A stretch of 64,000 bases of DNA, from assembly GCF_004795255.1 (NCBI RefSeq), contig NZ_SSBQ01000002.1, positions 663,001 to 727,000 of the forward strand, written 5' to 3'. The notes under the pieces were generated by a model. That model was not told the DNA's origin and made no database searches. It was given only the letters and a program-made list of their open reading frames with translations. Position 1 is the first letter of the stretch. Every line of letters starts with the position of its first letter. This DNA is from Streptomyces sp. RKND-216 (GTDB lineage: Bacteria > Actinomycetota > Actinomycetes > Streptomycetales > Streptomycetaceae). Below, piece by piece: positions 12,446 to 25,465 of this stretch. Made by a program: the position numbers and the translations under genes.

Positions 12446-15400
12446 GTGTCCAGAGCGCTCGGCGGAGTACGGGCTGGGCGGGCTGGTGTTCTCGCCACAG
12501 CCACGGCGTTGTTCGCTGGTCTACTACCACTGCTGCCCGGCACGGCTCCTGCGGCGGCAGCTGCCGAGCTGAGTCCCGCACAGAAGGCACTGGCACGGGC
12601 GGAAGAGACCGGTGAGCGGGTCGAGCTGACCGGTGAGCGCAGCGAGTACTCCAGCGTCTTCGCGAACCCCGATGGCGAGACTTTCACGCTCAGCACCTCG
12701 ATTGCCCCCATGAGGGTCAAGCAGGCGGACGGGGCCTGGGCTGAGCCCGATGCCACGCTGGTCCGCGCCGCGGACGGGGCCATCAGGCCGAAGGCCGCGG
12801 CGACCGGGCTGGAGTTCTCGCCCGGCGGACAGGCGCCGCTGGCGACGATCAGCGACCAGGGCAGGGAGCTGTCGGTGGGCTGGTCGGGCGAGCTGCCCGA
12901 GCCCTCCTTGGAGGGGGCGACGGCCACGTATCCGGATGTGCTTCCTGATGTGGATTTGAAGGTGACCGCTTCGGTGACCGGTTTCCAGCACGTGCTGGTC
13001 GTCGAGACTCCCGAGGCTGCGGCCGGCCCCGCCCTGAAGGAGCTCCAGTTCTCCCTTCAGGCACGGGGCCTGAAGGTTCGTGAGGCCGCCGCGGGCGGCC
13101 TGGACGCGGTGGACGGGAACGGCAAGGCGTTGTTCAAGGCGCCGGCGGCGTTCATGTGGGACTCCTCCGGTAACCAGAGCAGCGCCGCCCCCAGTAAGGC
13201 CAAGGCCATGCCGCGCAGCGGCAGCGTCGCCGCCCTGGACGCGGGCCCGGCCGGCCCGGGGGAGCACGACCGCAGCCAGGGCCCGGCGCCCGGCGATGAG
13301 ATCGCCGAAGTGCATGTGCAGGTGGGGGACGACACCCTGTCCGTCGCCCCGGACGCGGACATGCTCACCAGCACTCCCGCCTCTGCCTTCCCCCTCTACA
13401 TCGACCCCGATGTGTCCTGGGGGGAGTACGAGCGCACGCTCATCCGCTCCGACGGCTACACGGACTACAACTGGACCGGTGATGAAGGTGTCGGCGAGTG
13501 CCACGTCTGGGGCGGCTACTACTGCGACGAGGACGGCTACCGGCAGCGCCTGATCTTCGAGATGTCCGGGAGCAAGCTCAAGGGCAAGCACGTCCTGGAC
13601 GCCACTTTCCGTCTCACCGAGACCTGGTCCTTCTCCTGTGACCCGACCTGGGTTCAGCTGTGGCGCACCGGCAGCATGTCCAGCCGCACCAGCTGGCCGG
13701 GCCCGGACCGCATCGACATGATGGGCGACCGCCATGTCTCCGCCGGCCGCGGCGACGCGTGCACTCCCTCACAGCCGGCCAAGCCGATCGAGTTCAACGA
13801 CAACCCCGGCGAGAGCAACGAGAACCTCACCACCACCGTCAAGCGCCTGGCCAGTGGAGACCTCTCCCGCCTGACGCTGATGCTCAAGTCGCAGGACGAG
13901 ACGACGACCAAGGGCTGGAAGCGGTTCAAAAACGACGCCGTCCTGGACGTCACCTACGTCGGCATCCCGGCCCGCCCCACCAACGTCGGACTCGTTCAGA
14001 GCGGCAAGAAGACCTCGTGTGAGACCGACGCCGACAACGCACCTGTCACCGCCGACCCCACACCCGCAGTCGGCGGATACGTCCAGACCCAGTCCGGTGG
14101 CCAGGACGAGGCCAAGATGCGCATGTACTTCGACATCGACGTCGAGAACAGCGACGGCACCTGGTCCGATGTCTCACCCGGCGGCTCCGACCTCGACCCC
14201 ACCAGCGGCTATGTCGGCGACGGCACCTGGACCACGAAGACGTGGGACAACCCGCTGGAGGAAGGGCCGCTGTACCGGCTGCGGGCCTGGGCCCTGTCGT
14301 ACTGGGACAACGGCAACAAGTACCTCGACGGCCCCTCGAACGCCACCGGGGCAGGCTGGTGCTACTTCACCGTCGACCCCACCGCCCCGGCCGCCCCCGC
14401 ACTGACCGTCGGCGCCCCCTACCAGGAGTGCCAGCCCAACGACTGCCCCGCAGCCGGCGCACCGGGCACACCCACGATGATCACCGCCACCCCGGCTGCT
14501 GGTGATACCATCACCGGCGCCGAGTACTGGACCTCCGCCACTGATGAGTGGTCGCCGATGACGGCGGACGGCTCCACCTACACCGCCCAGGTCACCCCCG
14601 ACCGCTCCGGCACCTTCCGCGTCCTGGTCGAGCTGAGAGATCAGTCCGGACGAGAAAGCGAACGGGGGGAACTGGACTTCCTCGTCCAAGCCGGCGAGGG
14701 ACCCGTCGCACGCTGGCACTTCGACGAAACCTCCGGCGTCGCCGTCGACTCGGCCACGACGGCGGACTCCGCACAGCAGGACGCCACCCTGCACACGGGC
14801 GCCACCCGCGACGATCGCGGCCGCCGCGGCCTGATCACCACCGACGCCCAGGGCGACCCAATGCCCGAACCGGTCACCGACCGCGGCATGGCCCTGGACG
14901 GCGACACCGGCTACGCCGCCACCAACGGTCCGGTGCTGGAGACCCGCTCGGCCTACACCATCTCCGCCTGGGCACGCCTGAACAGCACTGATGGCGACAG
15001 CATCATCCTGTCCCAGGACGGCGGCAATTACAGTCCCTTCATCCTGTGGTACGAGCCGGACTACGGCACCTGGGCCTTCGGGGTGAAGGAAGCCGATGAG
15101 GCCACAGGCACCGCCTACTACGGTGTCGTAGCCGAACAGCCCGCCGCCGCGAACGTGTGGACGCACGTGGCCGGCACCTACGACTCGGCCACCAAGAAGC
15201 TGCAGCTCTACGTCAACGGCGTCCTCCAGGGAACCACGCAGAGCGCCGGCTCCTGGGACGCCGGCGGCGCCTTCCAGATCGGCCGCTACCAGTGGGCCGG
15301 CCAGCGCATGCACTACTTCGACGGCTCCATCGACGAGGTCGCAGCATGGCAGCGCGTGCTCACCGCTGCGGAGATCGCCGACGAAGCGCGACTGCTGATG

Positions 15401-16084
15401 CCCGGCGGTCATGCCGGTGCGGAGCTGGTCGCGGCCTGGGACCCCTCCACCGGCACCGGCACGACGGTCACCGACACGGTCTCCGGCTACGGGCGCGACC
15501 TCACCCTCGCCGGCGGATCCGCGCTGGACGGCGAGGCCCTGGTCCTGGACGGCAACGACGGCCACGCCTCCACACCGGGACCGCTCGTCGACGGCACAGG
15601 GTCCTTCACCACAACCACCTACGTGGAACCCGACAAGGACACCCTCGCCGCAGCCCCTGTCGGATCCACGGTCCAGGTGCTGCAGCAACCGGCCGCAGAC
15701 GGCGCCGCGTGGGGCATCTGGTTCGAAGTCACAGGCAAGCAGAAAGTCCTCAACGACGACTTCGAGGAAGAGACGCTCGCAGTCGGCAGGTGGCACTTCG
15801 GGCGCCCCGGCGCAGCCGTCGTCACTGACGCTGACATCACGATCGACGGCACGGGCTACCGGCTCAGCGGCGTCCACGATGCCCAGGACGGAACGGCCAC
15901 CTTGTACGTCTCCGACGTGCAGCACGACGTGCCGACCGCGTACACGGCCAAGGTCGGCCAAGGAGCATTCACCGTCGGGCGCTCCGTCTCCGGCGACTTC
16001 ATGCCAGGACGTGTCTGGGACGTAAGGGTCTGGGCCGGCGCGGCCGCTGACCATGAACAGCTCATCAACATGGTCGGCGAGTAA
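12446..16084 (+). CDS. Secreted LamG / DNRLRE domain protein, partner of the RHS protein
   Basis: This 1212-residue protein is predicted to be exported. A Sec-type signal (basic residues, then VLATATALFAGLLPLLPGTAPAAAAA) occupies residues 1-40. A DNRLRE-like beta domain, recognisable from FPLYIDPDVSW and the following RLIFEMSG region, lies around residues 310-510, and a Concanavalin/LamG-like jellyroll around 755-980 (VARWHFDETSG, AYTISAWARL, VWTHVAGTYD, LYVNGVLQG, GSIDEVAAWQRVL). A second, more diverged LamG-like module (ELVAAWDPSTGTG) completes the protein. The GTG start has GGGGGA a few bases upstream. The RHS gene starts 14 bases after its stop, so the two are co-transcribed. In streptomycetes such proteins are commonly paired with RHS-repeat proteins; the molecular role is not established, and surface or carbohydrate binding is inference. 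Confidence 0.85.
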   Translation: MSRALGGVRAGRAGVLATATALFAGLLPLLPGTAPAAAAAELSPAQKALARAEETGERVELTGERSEYSSVFANPDGETFTLSTSIAPMRVKQADGAWAEPDATLVRAADGAIRPKAAATGLEFSPGGQAPLATISDQGRELSVGWSGELPEPSLEGATATYPDVLPDVDLKVTASVTGFQHVLVVETPEAAAGPALKELQFSLQARGLKVREAAAGGLDAVDGNGKALFKAPAAFMWDSSGNQSSAAPSKAKAMPRSGSVAALDAGPAGPGEHDRSQGPAPGDEIAEVHVQVGDDTLSVAPDADMLTSTPASAFPLYIDPDVSWGEYERTLIRSDGYTDYNWTGDEGVGECHVWGGYYCDEDGYRQRLIFEMSGSKLKGKHVLDATFRLTETWSFSCDPTWVQLWRTGSMSSRTSWPGPDRIDMMGDRHVSAGRGDACTPSQPAKPIEFNDNPGESNENLTTTVKRLASGDLSRLTLMLKSQDETTTKGWKRFKNDAVLDVTYVGIPARPTNVGLVQSGKKTSCETDADNAPVTADPTPAVGGYVQTQSGGQDEAKMRMYFDIDVENSDGTWSDVSPGGSDLDPTSGYVGDGTWTTKTWDNPLEEGPLYRLRAWALSYWDNGNKYLDGPSNATGAGWCYFTVDPTAPAAPALTVGAPYQECQPNDCPAAGAPGTPTMITATPAAGDTITGAEYWTSATDEWSPMTADGSTYTAQVTPDRSGTFRVLVELRDQSGRESERGELDFLVQAGEGPVARWHFDETSGVAVDSATTADSAQQDATLHTGATRDDRGRRGLITTDAQGDPMPEPVTDRGMALDGDTGYAATNGPVLETRSAYTISAWARLNSTDGDSIILSQDGGNYSPFILWYEPDYGTWAFGVKEADEATGTAYYGVVAEQPAAANVWTHVAGTYDSATKKLQLYVNGVLQGTTQSAGSWDAGGAFQIGRYQWAGQRMHYFDGSIDEVAAWQRVLTAAEIADEARLLMPGGHAGAELVAAWDPSTGTGTTVTDTVSGYGRDLTLAGGSALDGEALVLDGNDGHASTPGPLVDGTGSFTTTTYVEPDKDTLAAAPVGSTVQVLQQPAADGAAWGIWFEVTGKQKVLNDDFEEETLAVGRWHFGRPGAAVVTDADITIDGTGYRLSGVHDAQDGTATLYVSDVQHDVPTAYTAKVGQGAFTVGRSVSGDFMPGRVWDVRVWAGAAADHEQLINMVGE

Positions 16085-16098
16085 AGGGGATCTGGGAC

Positions 16099-19000
16099 AT
16101 GCGCATCGGTAGACGTATCTCTACGCGCGGCCTCATAGCCGCCCTGTCCACCGCTCTCCTGATCGAGGTCGGCGTGGCACAGATCGCCTTCGCGGCCGAC
16201 GGACTCGGCAAGCCCGACGCCCCGAGCCCACACGCCGCCACGGTGAAGGAAGTCGCCGGCCTGGGCGCGGACAAGGCCAGGGAGCGCCGGGCCAAGGAGC
16301 GCAAGCGCAACACGGCGCAGGCTGAGCGGGCCGAGCGGGAACAGAACGCCGCTCCGGAGCCTGCGAAGCTCAGACGCCCTCGCAGCAGCAGCGTCGCCGA
16401 ACTCGCCGTGAGCACGAGTGAGGCCGATGGGGGAGGGGACTACAGCGCCACGCCGCTGTCTCCGTCCGCCTCCTGGGGGGCCGGCGGGAACGCCGGTTCC
16501 TTCACTTGGGGCTATGACCTCGTGATTCCACAGCCGCCGGCGGGCGTCGCGCCGAAGCTGTCCCTGGATTACGACTCCGGCTCGATCGATGGCCGCACCT
16601 CGGCGACGAACAATCAGGGCAGCGCGCTGGGTGAAGGCTTCTCGATCACGGAGTCCTACATCGAGCGGACCTACGGGTCGTGCGATGAGGACGGGCACGG
16701 GGATGATCAGAAGGACCTGTGCTGGAAATACGACAACGCCCGCCTGGTCCTCAACGGCAAAGCCTCCCGCCTGGTCAAGGACGGGGACGGATGGCGGCTG
16801 TCGAACGACGACGCATCCAAGGTCGAGCGGCACACCGGCGCCTCCAACGGTGACGACAACGGCGAGTACTGGACCGTGACCACCACCGGCGGCACCGTCT
16901 ACACCTTCGGCAAGGACGACGTCGCAGGCTCGGAGACCGGCTCGGTGTGGACCGTGCCGGTCTACGGGGACGACTCCGGCGAGCCCGGCTACAGCCAGGG
17001 CTCCTCTTTCAGCGGCCGGTCGCTGCGGCAGGCATGGCGGTGGAACCTGGACGTCGTCCAGGACACCCACGACAACGCGGCCACCTACTGGTACGCCAAG
17101 GAGACCAACCACTACCGCAAGAACGGCGCCTCCACCGCGAACACCGCCTACACCCGCGGCGGCTACCTGACCGAGATCCGCTACGGCCAGCGCGCCGACG
17201 CCCTGGAGACGTACTTCTACCGGGTCAAGCTCGCGCACAAGGAGCGCTGCACCGCCGAGGACTGCAGCGAGCTGACCGAGGACACCAAGGACAACTGGCC
17301 CGACGTGCCCTTCGAGGCCTTGTGCACCGACGGCGAGTCCGAGGCGGACTGCACCGGCCTGGGCCCCTCTTACTTTTCCCGGAAGCGGCTGACCGGCGTC
17401 ACCACGCAGGTCAAGGACGGCGACACCTTCAAGGACGTGGACTCCTGGACCTTCACCCAGGACTACCTAGACCCCGGCGACATCGGCGGCACCGACGACC
17501 AGGTCCTGGTCTTGAAGAAGATCCAGCGCACCGGAAAGGCCGGCGCCAAGGACGACATCGCCATGGACCCGGTGACCTTCGCCTACCGGATGCTGGAGAA
17601 CCGCGTCGACGCCACCGACGACATCCTCCCCATCACCCGCCCCCGCCTGTCCACGGTCACCACCGAGACCGGCGGACTCATCACCGTCACCTACTCCCCC
17701 CAGGAGTGCGTGCGCGGCGAGGTCATCGACGCACCGGAGGACACCAACACCCGCTCCTGCTACCCACAGTACTGGCACATCAACGGCGCCTCCGAGGCAT
17801 CGGTGGACTGGTTCCACAAGTACCGCGTCCTCGCGGTGGTCACCACCGACCCCACCGGCTACGGCCAGACCATGGAAACCTCCTACACCTACGAGGACGC
17901 GGCCTGGCACTACAGCGAAAGCCCGTTCACCCCCGAGGAGGAGCGGACCTGGAACGACTGGCGCGGCTACCGCAAGGTCACCACCCACACCGGCGCCGTG
18001 GGCACCACCCGGTCCAAGACCGTCGCGCTCTACCTACAGGGCATGGACGGCGACAAGACCGAAACCGGCACCCGCGACGTCACCCTCACCGGCGTCGACC
18101 TGACCGGTCTCGACGTCCCGGACATCGCCGACAGCGACCAGTACTCCGGCCGAATCCGCCAGCAGATCACCTACAACGGCGACACCCCCACCACGGTCAA
18201 GGTCACCCAACCCTGGTCCAAGGAGACCGCCCGCCAGGACGTCCCCGGAGCCGGCGACCACATCGCCCGCTACGTCCGCACCGCCAAGACCACCAGCCAC
18301 ACCTACCTGACCGCCGACCAGACCTGGCGCAGCCGGGCCACCACCACCAGCTACGACGACTACGGCATGGCCACCCAAGTCGGCGACTCGGGCGAGATCG
18401 GCAAGAGCGGTGACGAGACCTGCACACGCTCCTGGTACGCCCGCAACCCCGACGCCGGCCTGACCGGCCTGGTCTCCCGCGAGTTGACCGTTGCCCGCGG
18501 CTGTGGCACCGCCCTGGCCGACGTCGACCTGCCCTCCGACACCACGCGCCGCGGTGAAGTGCTCTCCGACACCGCCACCGTCTACGACGACTCCGACGCC
18601 ACCACCTGGACCGTCGACCAGTCACCCACAACGGGTGAGGCGGCCTGGGCGGGTCGCGCCACCGGCTACACCACCACAGGCACCCCTGCCGGGTGGCAGA
18701 CCGTCACCACCACCGGCTACGACACCCTCGGCCGCGCCATCTCCACCACCGACGCCCAGGGCAACACCTCCACCACCGCCTACCGCCCAGCGGAGGGCGG
18801 ACCCCTCGAGCGGACCATCGCCACCAACCCGCGCGACCACGCCGTTGTCGACTTCTACGAACCGCTGCGTGGACTCGTCCTGAGGCATTACGACGAGAAC
18901 CGCAAGCAGACCGAGACGGCCTACGACGCCCTCGGGCGTGTCACCGACGTATGGCTCCCCGGGTTCAGCAGCAGCCGCCCAGCGGACTACACCTTCGACT

Positions 19001-22000
19001 ACCACCTGCACAACGACAAACCGTCCTACGTCGCCAGCGGCCGCATAGCCGCCGACCTCGACACCCACATAACCACCTACACCCTCTACGACTCACTCCT
19101 GCGGGAACTGCAGACACAGACGCCCTCACCCGCGGGTGGGCGGATCCTGACCGACACCCGCTACGACTCCCGCGGCCTCGCCTACGAGACCTACGCCGAC
19201 ATCTGGGACAAGAACACCGACCCCAACGGCACCTACACCCGCGCCCTGCACGGCGAAGCCCCCAAGCAGACCCTCACCACCTACGACGGCACAGAACGCC
19301 CCACCACCAGCACGTTGCTGGTCAAGGGCACCCAGAAGTGGACGACCACCACCACCTACACCGGCGACTCCACCGCCACCACCGCCCTCAACGGCGGTGA
19401 GGCCCAGCGCACCATCACCGACATCCGCGGCAACACCATCGAACGCCGCACCTACGCCGGCACACAGCCCACCGACCCCGACTTCGGCGGCACCGCACCC
19501 GGCATCCCCTACAACTCCACCAAGTTCACCTACACCCCCGACGGCAAGGACAAGACCGTCACCGGCCCCGACGGCACCCAGTGGAGCTACGGCCACGACC
19601 TCTTCGGCCGCCAGGTGACGAACACCGACCCGGACAAGGGCACCTCCACCACCGCCTACAACAGCCTCGACCAGGTCATCGAAGCCACCGACTCCCGTGG
19701 CGAGTCGGTCCTGACCGAGTACGACGAGCTGGGCCGGGTGAAGGGCACCTGGGCGAACGAGAAGAGCGAAGCCAACCGTCTGACCGGCTTCACCTACGAC
19801 ACCGTCCTCAAGGGCAAGCCCACCACCTCCACCCGCTACGACGACGGCGCCGCCTACACCACCGAGGTCACCGCCTACGGCACCCTCGGCCAGCGCGAAG
19901 AGTGGCAGCTTCACCTCCCCTCCAGCGACCCGCTCGTCGAAGCCGGCGCACAAACCACCTATGCCTTCGACGCCCACTACACCCGCAACGGACTCCTCCG
20001 CAGCCAGCTGGTGCCAGCCATGGGAGGGCTGCAACAGGAGGCGGTGAGTTACAGCCACACCCTGCAAGGTGCGCTCACCGAAGTCCGAGGGAGCAACCTC
20101 TACCTCACCGAAGCCATCTACACCCCCACCGGCCTGCCCGACCAGCTCACCCTCGGCCCCTCGGGCAGCACCACCAAAGCCACCTACATCGACCACGACT
20201 ACGAGGTCGGCACTGACCGACTCCTCAGCAGCTCAGTCACCACCGAAACCCACGGCTGGCAGCTACAGGACCTGAACTACACCCACGACCAGGCAGGCAA
20301 CGTCACCGCCATCACCGACACCGCCACCATCGGCGGCGCCCAAGCAGCCGACACCCAGTGCTTCGACTACGACGGCCACCGCCGACTCACCGACGCCTGG
20401 ACACCCACCAACGGCGACTGCACCAACCCACGCGACGCAGACACACTCGGCGGCCGCGCCCCCTACTGGACCAGCTACACCTACAACGAAGCCGGCCAGC
20501 GCACCAGCGAAACCGACCACACCACAGGCGACACAGACACCTACTGCTACACCGGCGACCAGCCCCACACCCTCACCGGCACCAGCACCGCAGCCGACTG
20601 CACCAACCCCGACCGCGACTACGGCTACGACCCCGCCGGCAACACCACCAGCCGACCCGGACAGACCCTCACCTGGAACACCGAAGGCAAACTCGACCAG
20701 GCCGCCGAAGACGCCGTCGACACCAACTACCTCTACGACGCCTCCGGCAACCTCCTCATCCGCCACACCGAAGGCGGCGAACGCATCCTCTACGCCGGCA
20801 GCACCGAACTCCACCTCCGCGCCGACGGAACCATGTGGGCCCAGCGCTACTACGGCACGGACGACATGACCATCGCCGTCCGCACCAACCGCAACACCGG
20901 CGGAAGCCAAACAGAACTTTCCTACCTCGCCGCCGACAAACACCGCACCACCACCCTCGCCATCGACTCCGGCGAAGAACAGACCTTCGTCAAACGCGCC
21001 CTCACCCCCTTCGGCGAACAACGCACCGAAGCACGCACCGGAAACTGGATCGACGACAAAGCCTTCATCGGCAAGACCCACGACACCAACACCGCCCTCA
21101 CCCACATAGGCGCACGCGAATACGACCCCACCACCGGCACATTCCTCAGCGTCGACCCACTCCTCGAGACCGACAGACCCCAAACCCTCAACGGCTACAG
21201 CTACGCAGCTCAGAACCCCTACACCTACACTGATCCCACTGGCGAAGGCCTCGACTGCGGCAACGGTGCTGGACAGCTGCCATGTCCGGAGAACGGAGCG
21301 ATTGACTCCTCCGGGCGCACGGGGAGCGGCGGTATGCTCTCGGTCGAGAGCTACCCCAGCGGAGACGGCACCGTAAACGTAGGCACCGTCCGAGACAGGT
21401 TCGGCGACATCGTCAGCGTTTCCACGCACTACCGCGAGTACACGAAACCAGTCGGAGACGGCGGAAAAGGGCAGAAAAAGGATACCGAAGACGATTCCTT
21501 CTGGAACAAGGTCGGAGATGCCTTGGGTGCGGCAGGCGATAAAATCGTCGACGCAGCAGTTTCCTTTTCCGCTGCCAATGTTGGAGCGATGAAGCGTTCC
21601 GCCCAGTTCCTCCAAGATCACTGGCGAGGGATTGCGGAAGGGGCTCTCTTCGTTGTGTGTGTCGCCACATTCGCCGGGTGCTTCTTTGGCAGTCTCGTAC
21701 TCGTAGGTGCAAAATACGGAGCCGATTACTACACCGGAGGATCTTCACGTGCAAATGAGCGAGTTGGGGCGAACCTGCGAGGTGCAGCAATCGGCCTGGC
21801 TGTCGGGCGCGTGGGCGGGGCCACTGTTGCTGGCCTTCAAAAGGCCGTGAAGCCGCTGGGTCGTCACAGTGCGAGATTCCTGAGTCGGCCCAAACATAAG
21901 GCAGGTCCGCGCCATGCGGCGACCCCGGACAGACTGCTTCGCGGTGTGTACTATGGCGGCGGCGCTGCCTATGGGCAGCTGGGCTGCGGAACTACCTTCC

Positions 22001-22020
22001 AATCGCCGGGTTGGTGCTGA
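16099..22020 (+). CDS. Secreted RHS/YD-repeat polymorphic-toxin-type protein with unrecognised C-terminal domain
   Basis: This is a 1973-residue protein. Residues 1-33 form a Sec signal ending VAQIAFAA. An SpvB/TcdB-like N-terminal region follows (GGNAGSFTWGYDLVIPQPPAG, KLSLDYDSGSIDG). Many YD repeats then extend through the middle, recognisable by G-x3-x-x-Y-D/N motifs (YDALGRVTDVW, YDPAGNTTSR). The RHS core ends around residues 1667-1716 with IGAREYDPTTGTFLSVDP and YTYTDPTGE, the usual junction with a toxin domain. The last 257 residues are variable, contain one strongly hydrophobic stretch (about 1844-1872) and end CGTTFQSPGWC; I recognise no toxin family. Codon use in the tail is visibly less GC-biased than in the core. 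A second frame stays open past this stop (see findings), so the natural C-terminus may be different. The start has GGGGAT-CTGGGAC upstream. Confidence 0.85.
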   Translation: MRIGRRISTRGLIAALSTALLIEVGVAQIAFAADGLGKPDAPSPHAATVKEVAGLGADKARERRAKERKRNTAQAERAEREQNAAPEPAKLRRPRSSSVAELAVSTSEADGGGDYSATPLSPSASWGAGGNAGSFTWGYDLVIPQPPAGVAPKLSLDYDSGSIDGRTSATNNQGSALGEGFSITESYIERTYGSCDEDGHGDDQKDLCWKYDNARLVLNGKASRLVKDGDGWRLSNDDASKVERHTGASNGDDNGEYWTVTTTGGTVYTFGKDDVAGSETGSVWTVPVYGDDSGEPGYSQGSSFSGRSLRQAWRWNLDVVQDTHDNAATYWYAKETNHYRKNGASTANTAYTRGGYLTEIRYGQRADALETYFYRVKLAHKERCTAEDCSELTEDTKDNWPDVPFEALCTDGESEADCTGLGPSYFSRKRLTGVTTQVKDGDTFKDVDSWTFTQDYLDPGDIGGTDDQVLVLKKIQRTGKAGAKDDIAMDPVTFAYRMLENRVDATDDILPITRPRLSTVTTETGGLITVTYSPQECVRGEVIDAPEDTNTRSCYPQYWHINGASEASVDWFHKYRVLAVVTTDPTGYGQTMETSYTYEDAAWHYSESPFTPEEERTWNDWRGYRKVTTHTGAVGTTRSKTVALYLQGMDGDKTETGTRDVTLTGVDLTGLDVPDIADSDQYSGRIRQQITYNGDTPTTVKVTQPWSKETARQDVPGAGDHIARYVRTAKTTSHTYLTADQTWRSRATTTSYDDYGMATQVGDSGEIGKSGDETCTRSWYARNPDAGLTGLVSRELTVARGCGTALADVDLPSDTTRRGEVLSDTATVYDDSDATTWTVDQSPTTGEAAWAGRATGYTTTGTPAGWQTVTTTGYDTLGRAISTTDAQGNTSTTAYRPAEGGPLERTIATNPRDHAVVDFYEPLRGLVLRHYDENRKQTETAYDALGRVTDVWLPGFSSSRPADYTFDYHLHNDKPSYVASGRIAADLDTHITTYTLYDSLLRELQTQTPSPAGGRILTDTRYDSRGLAYETYADIWDKNTDPNGTYTRALHGEAPKQTLTTYDGTERPTTSTLLVKGTQKWTTTTTYTGDSTATTALNGGEAQRTITDIRGNTIERRTYAGTQPTDPDFGGTAPGIPYNSTKFTYTPDGKDKTVTGPDGTQWSYGHDLFGRQVTNTDPDKGTSTTAYNSLDQVIEATDSRGESVLTEYDELGRVKGTWANEKSEANRLTGFTYDTVLKGKPTTSTRYDDGAAYTTEVTAYGTLGQREEWQLHLPSSDPLVEAGAQTTYAFDAHYTRNGLLRSQLVPAMGGLQQEAVSYSHTLQGALTEVRGSNLYLTEAIYTPTGLPDQLTLGPSGSTTKATYIDHDYEVGTDRLLSSSVTTETHGWQLQDLNYTHDQAGNVTAITDTATIGGAQAADTQCFDYDGHRRLTDAWTPTNGDCTNPRDADTLGGRAPYWTSYTYNEAGQRTSETDHTTGDTDTYCYTGDQPHTLTGTSTAADCTNPDRDYGYDPAGNTTSRPGQTLTWNTEGKLDQAAEDAVDTNYLYDASGNLLIRHTEGGERILYAGSTELHLRADGTMWAQRYYGTDDMTIAVRTNRNTGGSQTELSYLAADKHRTTTLAIDSGEEQTFVKRALTPFGEQRTEARTGNWIDDKAFIGKTHDTNTALTHIGAREYDPTTGTFLSVDPLLETDRPQTLNGYSYAAQNPYTYTDPTGEGLDCGNGAGQLPCPENGAIDSSGRTGSGGMLSVESYPSGDGTVNVGTVRDRFGDIVSVSTHYREYTKPVGDGGKGQKKDTEDDSFWNKVGDALGAAGDKIVDAAVSFSAANVGAMKRSAQFLQDHWRGIAEGALFVVCVATFAGCFFGSLVLVGAKYGADYYTGGSSRANERVGANLRGAAIGLAVGRVGGATVAGLQKAVKPLGRHSARFLSRPKHKAGPRHAATPDRLLRGVYYGGGAAYGQLGCGTTFQSPGWC

Positions 22021-22053
22021 ATTCACAGAAGCTGATGGAGGTGTGGGATCCTT

Positions 22054-22548
22054 ATGGGGCGCAGTACTCGGTCGCGTGAGCGAGGCAGAATTAAAGCTCA
22101 ACCTGGAAAGGTGATCCAGACTTGGAAGCATCCTCGTTGGGAGCGAGCCTTGTTCTTTTTGACCGCCGTAATCGCGCTTGCTTTGACGTTGCTTAGTGCG
22201 GTCGGTCTCTTTGCGCAGTCCGATGTGACCTTTGAGGATGTATTCGCCCCAGTCTTCTTCTTCTCTGCTGGGGTCCTTGCCTTTGCGCTTGCAGAGTCTT
22301 CGATCAGTATAACGTCAGAGACTGTCCGTGTGCGAAACTTCTACAAGTGGCGAGTAATTCCACTGGAAGATATTAGTTCAGTTTCTCCCGGATATTACGG
22401 CATTGTGATCCGGTATCCATCGGGTGGATGTCTTCTCAGTCTGGCTTCGCAGAAATCAAATTATGCGACGTGGTTTAAGCGCAGGACGCAAGCGGACGAG
22501 ATTTCTTGTGAGATCTTGGCGGCTGTGCGCGCGCGTAAAGGTTTCTGA
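22054..22548 (+). CDS. Small membrane protein with PH-like domain, candidate immunity protein
   Basis: This is a 164-residue protein if started at the ATG. Two hydrophobic helices (ALFFLTAVIALALTLLSAVG and VFAPVFFFSAGVLAFAL) precede a soluble C-terminal part of beta-strand character (SISITSETVRVRNFYKWRV, then IPLEDISSVSP), the arrangement of bacterial PH-domain membrane proteins. Codon use is clearly lower in GC than the surrounding chromosome. Its position immediately after the RHS tail is where immunity genes of polymorphic toxins lie, so immunity is the leading inference, not a demonstrated role. An alternative GTG start at 22111 overlaps a TGA in the other frame by four bases and would give 145 residues; I cannot decide between them. 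Confidence 0.65.
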   Translation: MGRSTRSRERGRIKAQPGKVIQTWKHPRWERALFFLTAVIALALTLLSAVGLFAQSDVTFEDVFAPVFFFSAGVLAFALAESSISITSETVRVRNFYKWRVIPLEDISSVSPGYYGIVIRYPSGGCLLSLASQKSNYATWFKRRTQADEISCEILAAVRARKGF

Positions 22549-22699: not shown

Positions 22700-23040
22700 T
22701 CAGTTCATGCACATCTTGACGGAGAAGAGTCGCTTGGACGCCCAGCCCTTCACTCCGGTCTTCTTGTCCGTGACCAGCAGCCAGTTCTTGGTGTCCTTGT
22801 GGTATTTGAAGCCGTGGTTCTTGTACAGCACGCCCAGCGTGGGCGCGGAAGACGGCGGCCTGCTGTGTAGCCGCGCCGACTTCGCGGTCATGGCGTACGG
22901 GTTCGGCTGGTCGTGGCACGCATCAGGGGCGCAGTTGCCGGAACCGGACCCTGCGGCACCGTAGCGGCCGCGGTTGTCGCCGGAGCCAACACAACAACCG
23001 CCGCGACGACGGCCGCCGCAGTCCCATTTGCCCAGCGCAT
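22700..23040 (-). pseudogene. Secreted bacterial SH3-domain protein, apparently frameshifted
   Basis: A strong ribosome binding site (AAGGAGG five bases before the ATG at 23038-23040) opens a reading frame with a good Sec signal, MRWANGTAAAVVAAVVVLAP then ATTAAA. That frame ends uselessly near 22888. The other frame carries the rest of a plausible protein: Cys-containing GNCAPDACHDQPNPYAM, then an SH3-type-3-like module (LHSRPPSSAPTLGVL, NWLLVTDKKTGVKGWASKRL) and the final Cys of SVKMCMN. That second frame has no usable start codon. The simplest reading is one gene of about 113 codons broken by a single-base indel between roughly 22888 and 23000, either a real mutation or a sequencing error. 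The product would be a small secreted SH3 protein of unknown target. Confidence 0.65.
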
Positions 23041-23117
23041 CAAAGCCTCCTTGAAGAAGATCGCTAACACCTCGGATCCTTCTGGCGTCGCGGTCAACAC
23101 GCCGGAATCAACTCAAC

Positions 23118-23134
23118 GAGCTCGTAACAGGATC
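23118..23134. repeat. Left terminal inverted repeat of the IS5 element
   Basis: GAGCTCGTAACAGGATC; pairs with 24000-24016 with one mismatch. Confidence 0.75.
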
Positions 23135-23983
23135 ATGAGCGTGACTTCTTGTGGCGCCTCCAGCAGATGAGGCCGCAGGCGAGGGAGACGAGGGCGTCGT
23201 GGAGTTCGGGGCGTCGTTCCCATCGGACGGCCAGGCGCTTGAACTGGTGAAGCAGGGCGAAGGTCTGCTCCACCACGTAGCGGAGCTTGCCGAGGCCGTA
23301 GATGTTGGGCGAGCCTTTGCGGGAGATCACGGGCTGGGTCCGTCGTTTGCGCAGTTCACGGCGGTTTGGGTTGGAGTCGTAGTCCTTGTCGCCGAGGAGG
23401 GCTGCGGGGCGTTTGCGTGGGCGGCCGGGCTTGCCGGCCACAGGCGGGACGCCGTCGGCCAGAGGGAGCGTCTGGGTGACGTCGTTGACGTTCGAGGCCG
23501 TGGTGATCACCCGCAGGGGTGTTCCGTTGCCGTCGCAGATCAGGTGGTGCTTGCTGCCCGTCTTCCGTCGGTCGACCGGCGACGGACCGGTCGCGGCTCC
23601 CCCTTTTTGGCGCGGATGTGGGAGGCGTCCACACATGCGCGCGTCCAGTCCAGTTCGTCGGCCGCGTTGAGCTCACTCAGGAGTATGCGGTGCAACTCCT
23701 CGAAGACACCGGCCTCCTGCCAGCGGTCCAGGCGCCGCCAGCACGTCTGTCCCGAGCCGAAGCCCAGCTCCAGCGGCAGGTGCTGCCAGCTGATGTTGTT
23801 GAACAGCACGTACAAGATGCCCTGCAGACACAGCCGGTCGTCCACCGGCCTCGGTCCCGGCGACCGCTCTGGCCACGGCGGCAGCAACGGCTCGATCAGC
23901 GACCACAGTTCATCGTCCACGATCCACGGCTTGACTCCCACGACATCACGAACGGCCGAATCGTCACACCAGACACGGCCCAC
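23133..23983 (-). CDS. IS5-family transposase, made by -1 ribosomal frameshift of two overlapping ORFs
   Basis: ORF A (23983 down to 23540) holds the N-terminal DUF4096-like part (PWIVDDELWSLIEPLLPP, SWQHLPLELGFGSGQTCWRR) and the first catalytic Asp in RACVDASHIRAKKG. ORF B (23636 down to 23133) continues with GPSPVDRRKTGSKHHL, the second Asp region LLGDKDYDS and a C-terminal YVVEQTFALLHQFKRLAVRW containing the Glu. The frames meet at a run of five A then five G on the minus strand (23608 to 23599), the slippery type at which IS5-family elements shift by -1; the join gives ASHIRAKKG-GAATGPSPVDR. So the two ORFs look like a functional programmed frameshift, not a broken gene. The ends of both ORFs lie within the terminal repeats. 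Confidence 0.85.
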
Positions 23984-23999
23984 CAGCCAACCTCAACGA

Positions 24000-24016
24000 G
24001 ATTCTGTTACGAGCTC
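24000..24016. repeat. Right terminal inverted repeat of the IS5 element
   Basis: GATTCTGTTACGAGCTC, the complement of the left repeat except for one base. Confidence 0.75.
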
Positions 24017-24413
24017 TTATCAACGGGCTGCCCGGGGACGATGCAGGAACGTTGGCGTATGGGATCGCGCCTGCTTGTCATGCTGGGTGTGGCAAGACAA
24101 TGGCGCAGTGAACTACACGCCGGCCTGCGTGACCGCCTCCGCACGGTGGTGGTCAGAAACGGATCCGACCGCAAGCCTCACCAACGCGCATTCCTTCGAG
24201 GACATCCCCACGGTGACAGGTAGGTCGGAGTTCGATGATGTGCGTGAAGGCAAGATTGTAACCGGCACATCGTGGCGGAACCACCCTCGGCATTGGCTCG
24301 CGTCAGGCGACTGTGCGCCGATGGCGGCTGATGTTCTCGCGGAGCCCAGCGCGAGATTCGCCGAGCTTTGCCTGTTCAGCGAGAGATGGAGCTATTGCCA
24401 CATGTCCTGAGTC
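24017..24413. other. Stretch without a confident gene, possible coding remnant
   Basis: No complete gene is visible. On the plus strand one frame is open from inside the IS through to 24410 and reads partly protein-like (ASARWWSETDPTASL, SFEDIPTVTGRSEFDD), but it has no start of its own and I recognise nothing in it. It may be the tail of a gene cut by the IS insertion, or chance. Composition is less GC-rich than the core chromosome. Confidence 0.3.
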
Positions 24414-24950
24414 TCACACTCCGGCCATCAGGATGATCCCGGCCATAACGCCGAATACGCCAAGGCCCCCGAGTATCTTCAGAGGCATAGTCGTACGCAA
24501 TCGTGGTGGTAGAGCGCTGCCCTGCGGCGGGTTGGAACGCGGCCCCGCCATGGTGATTCCCAAGCCGAGCAAGACCAGGCCCACGGAGGCCATTATCACA
24601 GAGAACCCCTTGGTCCACTTGTTCTCGCGAATCCAGCCGGCCGGTGAGTCCCAGACGACGAGGGTGTCGCCCACGCGCAGGTTCTCCTCGCGCCTGTTCG
24701 AGTAAGAGCCGAGTACACGGCCATCCTCCTCGGTCACGGTACCCCTGCAGACGTATGGATCATTCCTAGTGCCTGCGCCTCCGCAATATTCGATACTGGC
24801 CTCGCCCTGGGTACCCACATGCCAAATCACCGCAGCTGCCGTGTTGGCAGTGAGCCAGATGAAGAAGAGCGCAAAGATCACTATGGCCGTACCAAGGAAA
24901 CGGCTGACCCAACGGTGCGTGCTTCCGATGATCGGTAGAAGATCCCCCAT
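24414..24950 (-). CDS. Hypothetical membrane protein, orphan of the accessory island
   Basis: This is a 178-residue protein if started at MGDLLPIIGSTHRW; an ATG 30 bases further upstream is also possible and neither has a convincing ribosome binding site. One hydrophobic helix near the N-terminus (FLGTAIVIFALFFIWLTAN) is followed by an extracytoplasmic-looking segment with two Cys (EYCGGAGTRNDPYVC) and an RVGDTLVVWDSPAGW stretch, then two more helices (VIMASVGLVLLGLGITMAG and LGGLGVFGVMAGIILMAGV). It resembles the DUF3592-like type of small membrane protein in layout, but I cannot assign a family. Composition is lower in GC than the flanking operons. It could be an orphan immunity gene or simply island cargo. 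Confidence 0.55.
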   Translation of the reverse strand: MGDLLPIIGSTHRWVSRFLGTAIVIFALFFIWLTANTAAAVIWHVGTQGEASIEYCGGAGTRNDPYVCRGTVTEEDGRVLGSYSNRREENLRVGDTLVVWDSPAGWIRENKWTKGFSVIMASVGLVLLGLGITMAGPRSNPPQGSALPPRLRTTMPLKILGGLGVFGVMAGIILMAGV

Positions 24951-25465
24951 GCACACGAGCCTAATGGTCGCGCTCCTCACTCCGTGGTGCGGTACCTACT
25001 CGCTCAGCCTCGCACTGCTCTGCACCCCAACCGGTCACGGCCCGACCCCCCATCAAGCCCGGGGCGCCGCCTGATGGCGTGAACATTGGTTGCGTCTCCT
25101 GGGCTCTGAGGGATCGCGTAGTTCGTGCAAGTGACCAAACCGGAGCCATGGACGGCTACACCGTGAAGGTCTCCTAACCCCGTCAGCTGTGTGGCCAGCA
25201 CGCTCATCCAGGGCCGGGCACGCCCAACCTCACTCAGCGGGCCAGAACCGGACCAGGTACGACTCGACTCCGTGCGGCACAGCCCCAGCGGTCAGCCGCG
25301 CCAGCTCCAGTTCCGAACCCGGGCAAGACGGAGGATCGCCGGTCGTACTTGTCCTACTCGCGGGCTGCGACTCCCGTGGAGGCGCCCTGTCCCCGAAGGG
25401 CCCAGGGGAGAGGGGCCGTAGCCGTCGCCGCGGGCCCAAGACGACCGGCCGGGAGGGCGGCGCGG
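24951..25465. other. Gene-free stretch at the right side of the island (515 bases)
   Basis: No gene could be supported. Short open frames on both strands around 25080-25200 read partly protein-like but have no start, no ribosome binding site and no recognisable domain. The right end (25380-25465) returns to the high-GC pattern of the alpha-glucosidase operon and should contain its terminator; several short GC-rich inverted repeats are present, none clearly dominant. Confidence 0.4.

Follow-up and report, generated by a model that had tools for sequence, protein, structure and literature searches.

Polymorphic toxins with membrane-acting C-termini have been described in several bacteria. One example is Tse5 of Pseudomonas aeruginosa, which, like the locus described here, has an Rhs shell, and carries a membrane-acting C-terminus without predicted enzymatic activity; its partner Tsi5 has two predicted transmembrane (TM) regions (PMC9637101, PMC10684867). 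A second example is UmbC2 4TM-tox of Streptomyces coelicolor, a secreted Streptomyces polymorphic toxin with a predicted pore-forming C-terminus that acts on another Streptomyces, and umbrella particles are the tested Streptomyces protein weapon found in the literature searched (PMC11062931). Here we describe a locus in a 64,000-nucleotide stretch of Streptomyces sp. RKND-216 (contig NZ_SSBQ01000002.1, positions 663,001 to 727,000; hereafter the window, to which coordinates refer unless a locus is named), the source genome being 5.61 Mb in two contigs. Three genes encoding a LamG protein, an RHS protein and a small two-TM protein lie in line, all on the + strand, with intergenic gaps of 14 and 33 nt. 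We favour, with moderate confidence, the reading that they form a secreted RHS toxin unit with a LamG partner and an exchangeable cassette of RHS tail and small protein, the tail serving in bacterial competition by disturbing a membrane. That the tail and the small protein are a cognate effector/immunity cassette is, taken by itself, very probable.

A family of RHS tails

The RHS protein (1973 aa; open reading frame (ORF) 16099..22020, +) begins with a signal-like hydrophobic segment (residues 9–37), contains RHS_repeat (PF05593) and has an RHS-associated core domain at residues 1636–1715 (21004..21243, +; TIGR03696 Rhs_assc_core, E=1.2e-16). An earlier note on this DNA, made from the sequence alone, placed the end of the core at a DPTGE junction, and this is correct: DPTGE begins at residue 1712 and the core match ends at residue 1715. 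The junction is followed by a linker (residues 1717–1791; 21247..21471, +) that by sequence comparison is common to the metagenomic protein P0004, and then by the C-terminal tail module of 182 residues (1792–1973; 21472..22020, +) that is the proposed toxin and the first row of our tail alignment, A5. By its repeats, core, DPxG junction, exchangeable C-terminus and cassette-specific downstream gene the protein resembles the secreted RHS polymorphic toxins. Pfam gave no match to a PAAR domain in the RHS protein, although the N-terminus of Tse5 is itself merely PAAR-like and the miss is not decisive. The AT-richer composition of the tail, also pointed out earlier, is evident from third-position GC, which lies between 0.78 and 0.98 in each block of 100 codons as far as residue 1700; over the final three blocks it is 0.72, 0.54 and 0.64, and in the small gene 0.53. 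The same genome has a second RHS gene (L003; G000:C2:2363750-2368576), 40% identical over residues 102–1718, the end of which looks by eye Hint-like and nuclease-like.

The statement in the earlier note that the tail matches no toxin family needs amending: no Pfam or NCBIfam family reached its cut-off in the tails, but a family listed in neither does exist. A search with the tail in a set of 5.77 billion proteins gave a single relative, P0004, with linker and hairpin as in the window tail and a different tip. Plasmid and phage collections gave no match. A scan of one genome per species (84,980 species, a collection that may leave out the window's own genome) gave one locus, in Streptomycetaceae bacterium MP113-05. 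As a single sequence the tail had five matches in 246 genus genomes, those in the window and in genome G145 being convincing; the weak matches in G122, G180 and G212 were dropped as spurious by eye. The G145 tail is 42% identical through the last residue and lies directly upstream of a small protein that is 32% identical, so tail and small protein are adjacent again and the pair recurs.

A profile built from the tails of the window, G145 and P0004 (A3) is positive, at E<=0.01, in 18 of the 392 genus genomes; one of these matches (L088 in G093) looked spurious by eye and was dropped. The loci read from the A3 matches, G382 and G287 not included, have a common layout of RHS core, linker, amphipathic helix with Trp, hydrophobic hairpin, Gly/Ala-rich helix and tip. 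Two Cys six or seven residues apart are present in the hairpin, and a second Cys pair, one of them C-terminal, in the tip. The 15 rows of A5 share six invariant columns (window numbering throughout): Trp1842, Cys1854 and Cys1861 in the amphipathic helix and hydrophobic hairpin (residues 1829–1885; 21583..21753, +), Gly1899, and Cys1963 and the C-terminal Cys1973 in the variable tip (residues 1905–1973; 21811..22017, +). Exactly four Cys and a C-terminal Cys are found in 15 of 15 tails, which is no blind test of cysteine conservation, as the rows were picked by tail profiles; L083, with no terminal Cys, was left out of A5. In 11 tails found later with A5, the terminal Cys is present in seven, next-to-last in two and absent in two (by eye).

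The A5 profile is positive in 11 of the 246 genus genomes (12 loci, the window genome included), and in the order the tail profile is positive in 9 of 95 genomes. A further profile (A7; E-values for 1000 sequences) was made from 12 family tails, those of G145, L074 and the window being left out. It gives the window tail E 1.1e-6 and 24.5 bits (E 0.00029 if the whole protein is scored), P0004 E 1.8e-23 and the tail of G145 E 5e-14; the best control RHS ORF has E 0.13 and 8.1 bits. By this profile link the window tail is, as far as its sequence tells, a remote member of the family. A tail that is a common structural end of RHS proteins, which the earlier note had named as speaking against its proposal, is not what is seen: one of 28 control RHS loci (L037) gives a borderline match to the tail profile.

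The four invariant Cys together with the fixed C-terminal Cys suggest a folded, oxidised tip, and this would suit a toxin/immunity pair without a pore, in which the tail, as a compact domain held by disulfides, would bind and block a target at the membrane (lipid II, a transporter or a membrane enzyme), the small protein masking either this target or the tail. It would also suit such blocking that the tails of L074 and G442a, with GRHA tips, have a membrane neighbour of another type, in that the tip may set the partner. However, the hairpin is better conserved than the whole tail (mean column identity 52% versus 39%), and profile and library searches (PDB sequences, Pfam and NCBIfam) gave no similarity of the tail to a known inhibitor. 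We consider blocking of a target unlikely, and retain a tail that disturbs the membrane as the preferred reading.

Pairing of the tail with a membrane protein gene

The small membrane protein (164 aa; 22054..22548, +), the proposed immunity protein, is preceded by a possible ribosome-binding site (GGAGG at 22037..22041, +, 12 nt before the ATG). Its start is uncertain; a database copy (P0005) begins at GTG 22111 and has 145 aa, and residues 1–15 have a predicted local distance difference test score (pLDDT) <50. The protein has a short strand, a TM hairpin (residues 28–54 and 60–80) and a PH-like domain (residues 83–162), and the AlphaFold2 model (mean pLDDT 85.9), in which a PH-like domain follows a pair of hydrophobic helices, agrees with the two-helix PH-like membrane protein described earlier. 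Nine K/R precede the first TM helix and none are in the loop (positive-inside rule). Relatives of the single sequence are few: the 5.77 billion proteins contain its own shorter copy and two relatives, with two more added by a profile search, and there are two matches in the 246 genus genomes. It resembles bPH_6 (PF10756) proteins, in which a PH-like domain lies behind TM helices, with a score of 14.1 that does not reach the Pfam cut-off of 22. This cut-off is passed by one of ten neighbour proteins scanned (L078, 23.4 bits), and TIGR04222 has a weak match (E 0.0065) in one of 19; no immunity role of bPH_6 turned up in the literature searched. PADLOC found nothing in the small-protein set, and a viral structure library gave no match at E<=0.001.

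In twelve of the loci read (L075–L082 and L084–L087) the product of the gene next to the tail combines a PH-like region with two or three TM-like segments. L074 and L083 were left out of the neighbour profile A6 as their neighbours belong to other families (another two-TM family and a protein with four TM-like segments, respectively). Ten of the 12 tail loci found with A5 in the 246 genomes adjoin an A6- or A4-family gene, the neighbours in the window and G145:C15 being found with A4 and not A6, and eight of these 12 loci helped build the profiles (G192, G235, G178, G217, G145:C15, G145:C22 and the window; G075 via the A3 selection). Fifteen loci are outside profile building (G227, G185, G064, G073 and eleven from the order search), and a family gene is next to the tail in nine of them (G227, G185, G064, G423, G431b, G431c, G442b, G420a and G250, the last belonging to another family of the order). 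In two others a family domain is 0.9 kb (G442c, a fragment) or 1.5 kb (G431a) away, and the remaining four (G073, G442a, G420b and G377) have no family gene next and other multi-TM proteins within 1.2 kb.

None of the 28 control RHS loci with other tails has the neighbour family (L019–L047, 29 loci of which 28 have a core match; for three of the 28 the sequence covered contains no downstream ORF, and several flanks are <300 bp). By a crude hydropathy count a neighbour with at least two TM-like segments is present in 14 of 14 tail loci, and a further set has one within 1.2 kb at all 12 of its 12 loci; in the control loci no such neighbour is seen within 700 bp (0 of 28). The co-occurrence of tail and small protein that the earlier note proposed to look for by profile search is thus found, both in the loci used for the profiles and in those outside them.

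A6 is positive in 68 of the 246 genomes, many of the matches being weak and covering part of the profile. There are 17 strong matches (E<=1e-20), and eight are directly behind a family tail. Four have an RHS or tail context nearby: the second copy in G235, one in G073, one in G227 (around 984 kb, 3.3 kb downstream of the end of an RHS core) and one in G161 (behind a 20-residue tail end). The other five (two in G194 and one each in G178:C146, G137 and G145:C1) are orphan-like, with no core or tail within the 9–18 kb read. Tail or RHS context in 12 of 17 means that the small protein is not mostly found without RHS partners, as the earlier note had allowed it might be. Antidote genes are known to occur as orphans in systems of this kind, for instance those of ExiCD, the polytopic membrane proteins that give immunity to EsxX of Staphylococcus aureus (PMC12744356).

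There are several departures from the simple arrangement. In L112, L113 and L136 (G227, G185 and G064) the tail has in-frame stops or there is no tail ORF, and the neighbour genes are still open, as expected if an antidote usefully outlasts its toxin. Tandem or clustered small-protein genes occur at L108:2279-3400 and L013:6619-9779 (G194 and G145:C1), where the sequence read contains neither RHS core nor tail; those of G145 are separated by a transposase-like gene. The stretch at L128:2176-4184 that separates the G431a tail from its neighbour gene has an ORF resembling by eye the reverse frame of the insertion sequence (IS) element in the window (see below), and this is perhaps an insertion that split the G431a pair. 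A further example is that of L074:2115-2795 and L130:2382-3239, which have GRHA-rich tips and in common a two-TM neighbour of another type, with the motif VRRVAWWRVRGLQRAAH (by eye), and this suggests that the tip decides which antidote family accompanies the tail.

Tail and neighbour appear to have a shared history. Distances between tails correlate with those between neighbours (r=0.96 for 14 pairs, with 0 of 5000 permutations as high); for core and neighbour r is 0.47, and the partial tail–neighbour correlation given the core is 0.95. The 14 pairs are from ten of the L074–L087 loci plus G423, G431c, G250 and the window. A pair needed 230 core residues in the same ORF, so that L077, L086 and several held-out loci are absent for want of a core; L074 and L083 were omitted as having other neighbours. 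The tail–neighbour correlation is also 0.96 with a fifteenth pair (G431b) or without the window. Leaving out three outliers, the window, G250 and L076, gives Spearman coefficients of 0.78 for tail and neighbour and 0.16 for core and neighbour, and these are 0.81 and 0.04 when a near-duplicate is dropped too.

The RHS cores have a different pattern. Cores that are 48–56% identical to that of the window (L019–L028) bear tails without similarity to the window tail, and those that bear family tails are 36–39% (seven), 55–56% (three) or, in P0004, 79% identical to it. Shorter overlaps are 74% over 132 residues in L086 and 30% over 84 in L076; L077 has no core in the ORF. Tails have thus been exchanged between cores, and together with the correlation of tail and neighbour the unrelated tails on similar cores show that the cassette moves independently of the shell.

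This bears on the possibility that there is no toxin at all, the tail anchoring the RHS shell on the surface of the producer and the small protein being an assembly factor or chaperone. In its favour, Foldseek places 8kei chain D (164 residues; E 6.9e-4, TM-score 0.41) first among the matches of the small protein; the entry is titled NADPH oxidase 2 with p22phox and EROS, the chain is presumably EROS, and EROS is called a chaperone (PMC9767466). However, RHS proteins with similar cores would be expected to have an anchor in common, yet the similar cores (48–56%) bear unrelated tails and have no neighbour with at least two TM-like segments in the flank covered. An assembly factor, moreover, need not track the tail independently of the core, and some copies of the small gene have no RHS in their vicinity. 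An anchor with its chaperone therefore seems very improbable compared with an effector and its immunity protein.

Possible action of the tail

The long hydrophobic stretch in the tail that the earlier note pointed out is present, the strongest hydrophobic windows being at residues 1843–1873. Such a stretch alone is weak evidence of membrane action, as RHS tails with Hint or enzyme-like ends carry hydrophobic segments too (by eye). A membrane action is plausible because the hydrophobic hairpin is conserved, no enzyme domain is recognised and the partners are membrane proteins.

The hydrophobic segments that precede Hint or enzyme-like ends in other RHS tails raise a further alternative, that the hairpin serves for entry or translocation while the toxin proper is the last 70–110 residues, possibly with a cytoplasmic target; the ionophores of contact-dependent inhibition likewise have one domain for entry and another as toxin (PMC11630599). 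Against this, the neighbour genes encode membrane proteins, and in 24 of 24 matches with iE<0.05 (independent E) 76–112 residues follow the hairpin, none being longer, in a sample that was mostly chosen by tail profile. We regard this division of labour as improbable.

In the reading that we favour, the effector would be the 182-residue RHS tail and its cognate immunity protein the adjacent small two-TM PH-like protein. Delivery would depend on export of the RHS shell, which would bring the tail to neighbouring actinobacteria, and toxicity would come from membrane damage, with the Cys-bearing helical hairpin and tip inserting into or acting at the cytoplasmic membrane and disturbing it as a pore or in an ionophore-like manner. 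Disulfides may form between the cysteines. The predicted topology of the small protein is in the producer membrane with the PH-like domain in the cytoplasm, and it would give immunity by binding the tail and so protecting the producer. A more specific version, which we put forward tentatively and think doubtful, is that a helical hairpin with four Cys, of which one is the fixed last residue, inserts in actinobacterial membranes, and that the toxin is captured in the producer membrane by an antidote of split-PH type, in which the first strand is followed by a membrane hairpin; the two would constitute a new RHS effector class of Streptomyces-like bacteria.

Several observations weigh against the reading of a paired membrane toxin and antidote. 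First, the window tail has no pairwise BLAST match with 6 of 13 family tails, as befits a remote member, and the small protein is similarly distant: it reaches no Pfam or NCBIfam cut-off, the A6 profile misses it in the window's genome, and hhalign relates it remotely to the neighbours with three TM segments (probability 90.9, E 1.2e-6). Second, six family-like tails (L074, G075, G073, G442a, G420b and G377) have other membrane neighbours. In G075 this is a four-TM protein, and in G073 a 116-aa protein with two TM-like segments, behind which is an A6-family gene in two frames. Third, there is some circularity in the profile tests, since a window-based tail profile supplied the loci from which, together with their neighbours, A5 and A6 were made. 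Fourth, of the structure predictions suggested earlier for the two proteins separately, that of the small protein succeeded and that of the tail did not, the tail model being poor (mean pLDDT 52.5) and its helices in the region of the amphipathic helix and hairpin (40–65 and 67–89 in the model) of low confidence. Finally, a glycine-zipper pore was considered and rejected; the window tail has GAAIGLAVGRVGG, yet strict GxxxGxxxG is present in 9 of the 17 tails, where shuffled sequences would give 8.5, and the positions differ.

Profile matches of the tail to PDB entries (viral fusion proteins and an enzyme) all have E>=0.03 and were taken as chance matches between hydrophobic stretches.

Surroundings of the cassette and comparison with known systems

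The first gene in the line encodes a putatively secreted LamG protein (1212 aa; ORF 12446..16084, +) with a hydrophobic signal-like segment at the N-terminus (by eye). It matches PF13385 (E=3e-36), has two LamG/jellyroll stretches of which the best is at residues 818–978, and contains a DNRLRE-like region at residues 363–495 (NF033679, below cut-off). A relative of this gene is upstream of the RHS gene in nine of ten related loci, of which five carry other tails and four carry tails of the family; at L146, the tenth, there is only a partial 26% match. The LamG gene stays with the RHS shell. The LamG and RHS genes had been described as a co-transcribed secreted pair, and the adjacency holds in these related loci; co-transcription is suggested by the spacing.

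Downstream of the cassette is an ORF on the - strand (22700-23100) with an SH3_3 domain (PF08239, E 3.5e-8 for 22700-22891), a gene that looks broken because a signal-like stretch at 22888-23100 is in another frame. An IS4/5-family element follows (23118-24016, -), with the transposase in two overlapping frames (DUF4096 at 23540-23983 and DDE_Tnp_1 at 23133-23636) and 17 bp ends that match at 16 of 17 positions (by eye). To the right of the element, 24007-24410 reads like a decayed short protein on the + strand, and 24414-24980 (-) encodes a 188-aa protein that matches nothing in Pfam and shows hydrophobic segments by eye.

The two systems introduced at the outset, compared here by their descriptions, differ from the window locus in delivery or in the shell. 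Tse5 is delivered by a type VI secretion system and has a PAAR-like N-terminus, whereas the window protein has a signal-like one (PMC9637101), and UmbC2 belongs to a lollipop particle with ALF repeats and the partners UmbA and UmbB, and has no RHS shell (PMC11062931). EsxX/ExiCD (PMC12744356) and TelE/TipE of Streptococcus gallolyticus (PMC10434224) are alike in having membrane-acting C-terminal toxin domains, but differ in the glycine zipper, which is not enriched in the window family, and in LXG delivery by a type VII secretion system; TipE is a DUF5085 protein (PMC12744356, PMC10434224). Tox-WTIP, found in polymorphic toxins and among them RHS proteins, is likewise a C-terminal domain that is short, hydrophobic and made of two helices, but is reported as limited to proteobacteria and has RxxR and W-[ST]IP motifs (PMC3482391); the W-[ST]IP motif is absent from the window tail sequence. 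Nothing in the open-licence literature, searched without subscription papers or supplements, was recognised as this pair of tail and small protein. RHS toxins with membrane antidotes are a known kind, to which the locus adds a tail family listed in neither Pfam nor NCBIfam. Within the same literature, four fixed Cys with a C-terminal Cys and a putative antidote that is a PH-like membrane protein would be new for RHS toxins, and the pair offers a directly testable toxin/antidote candidate.

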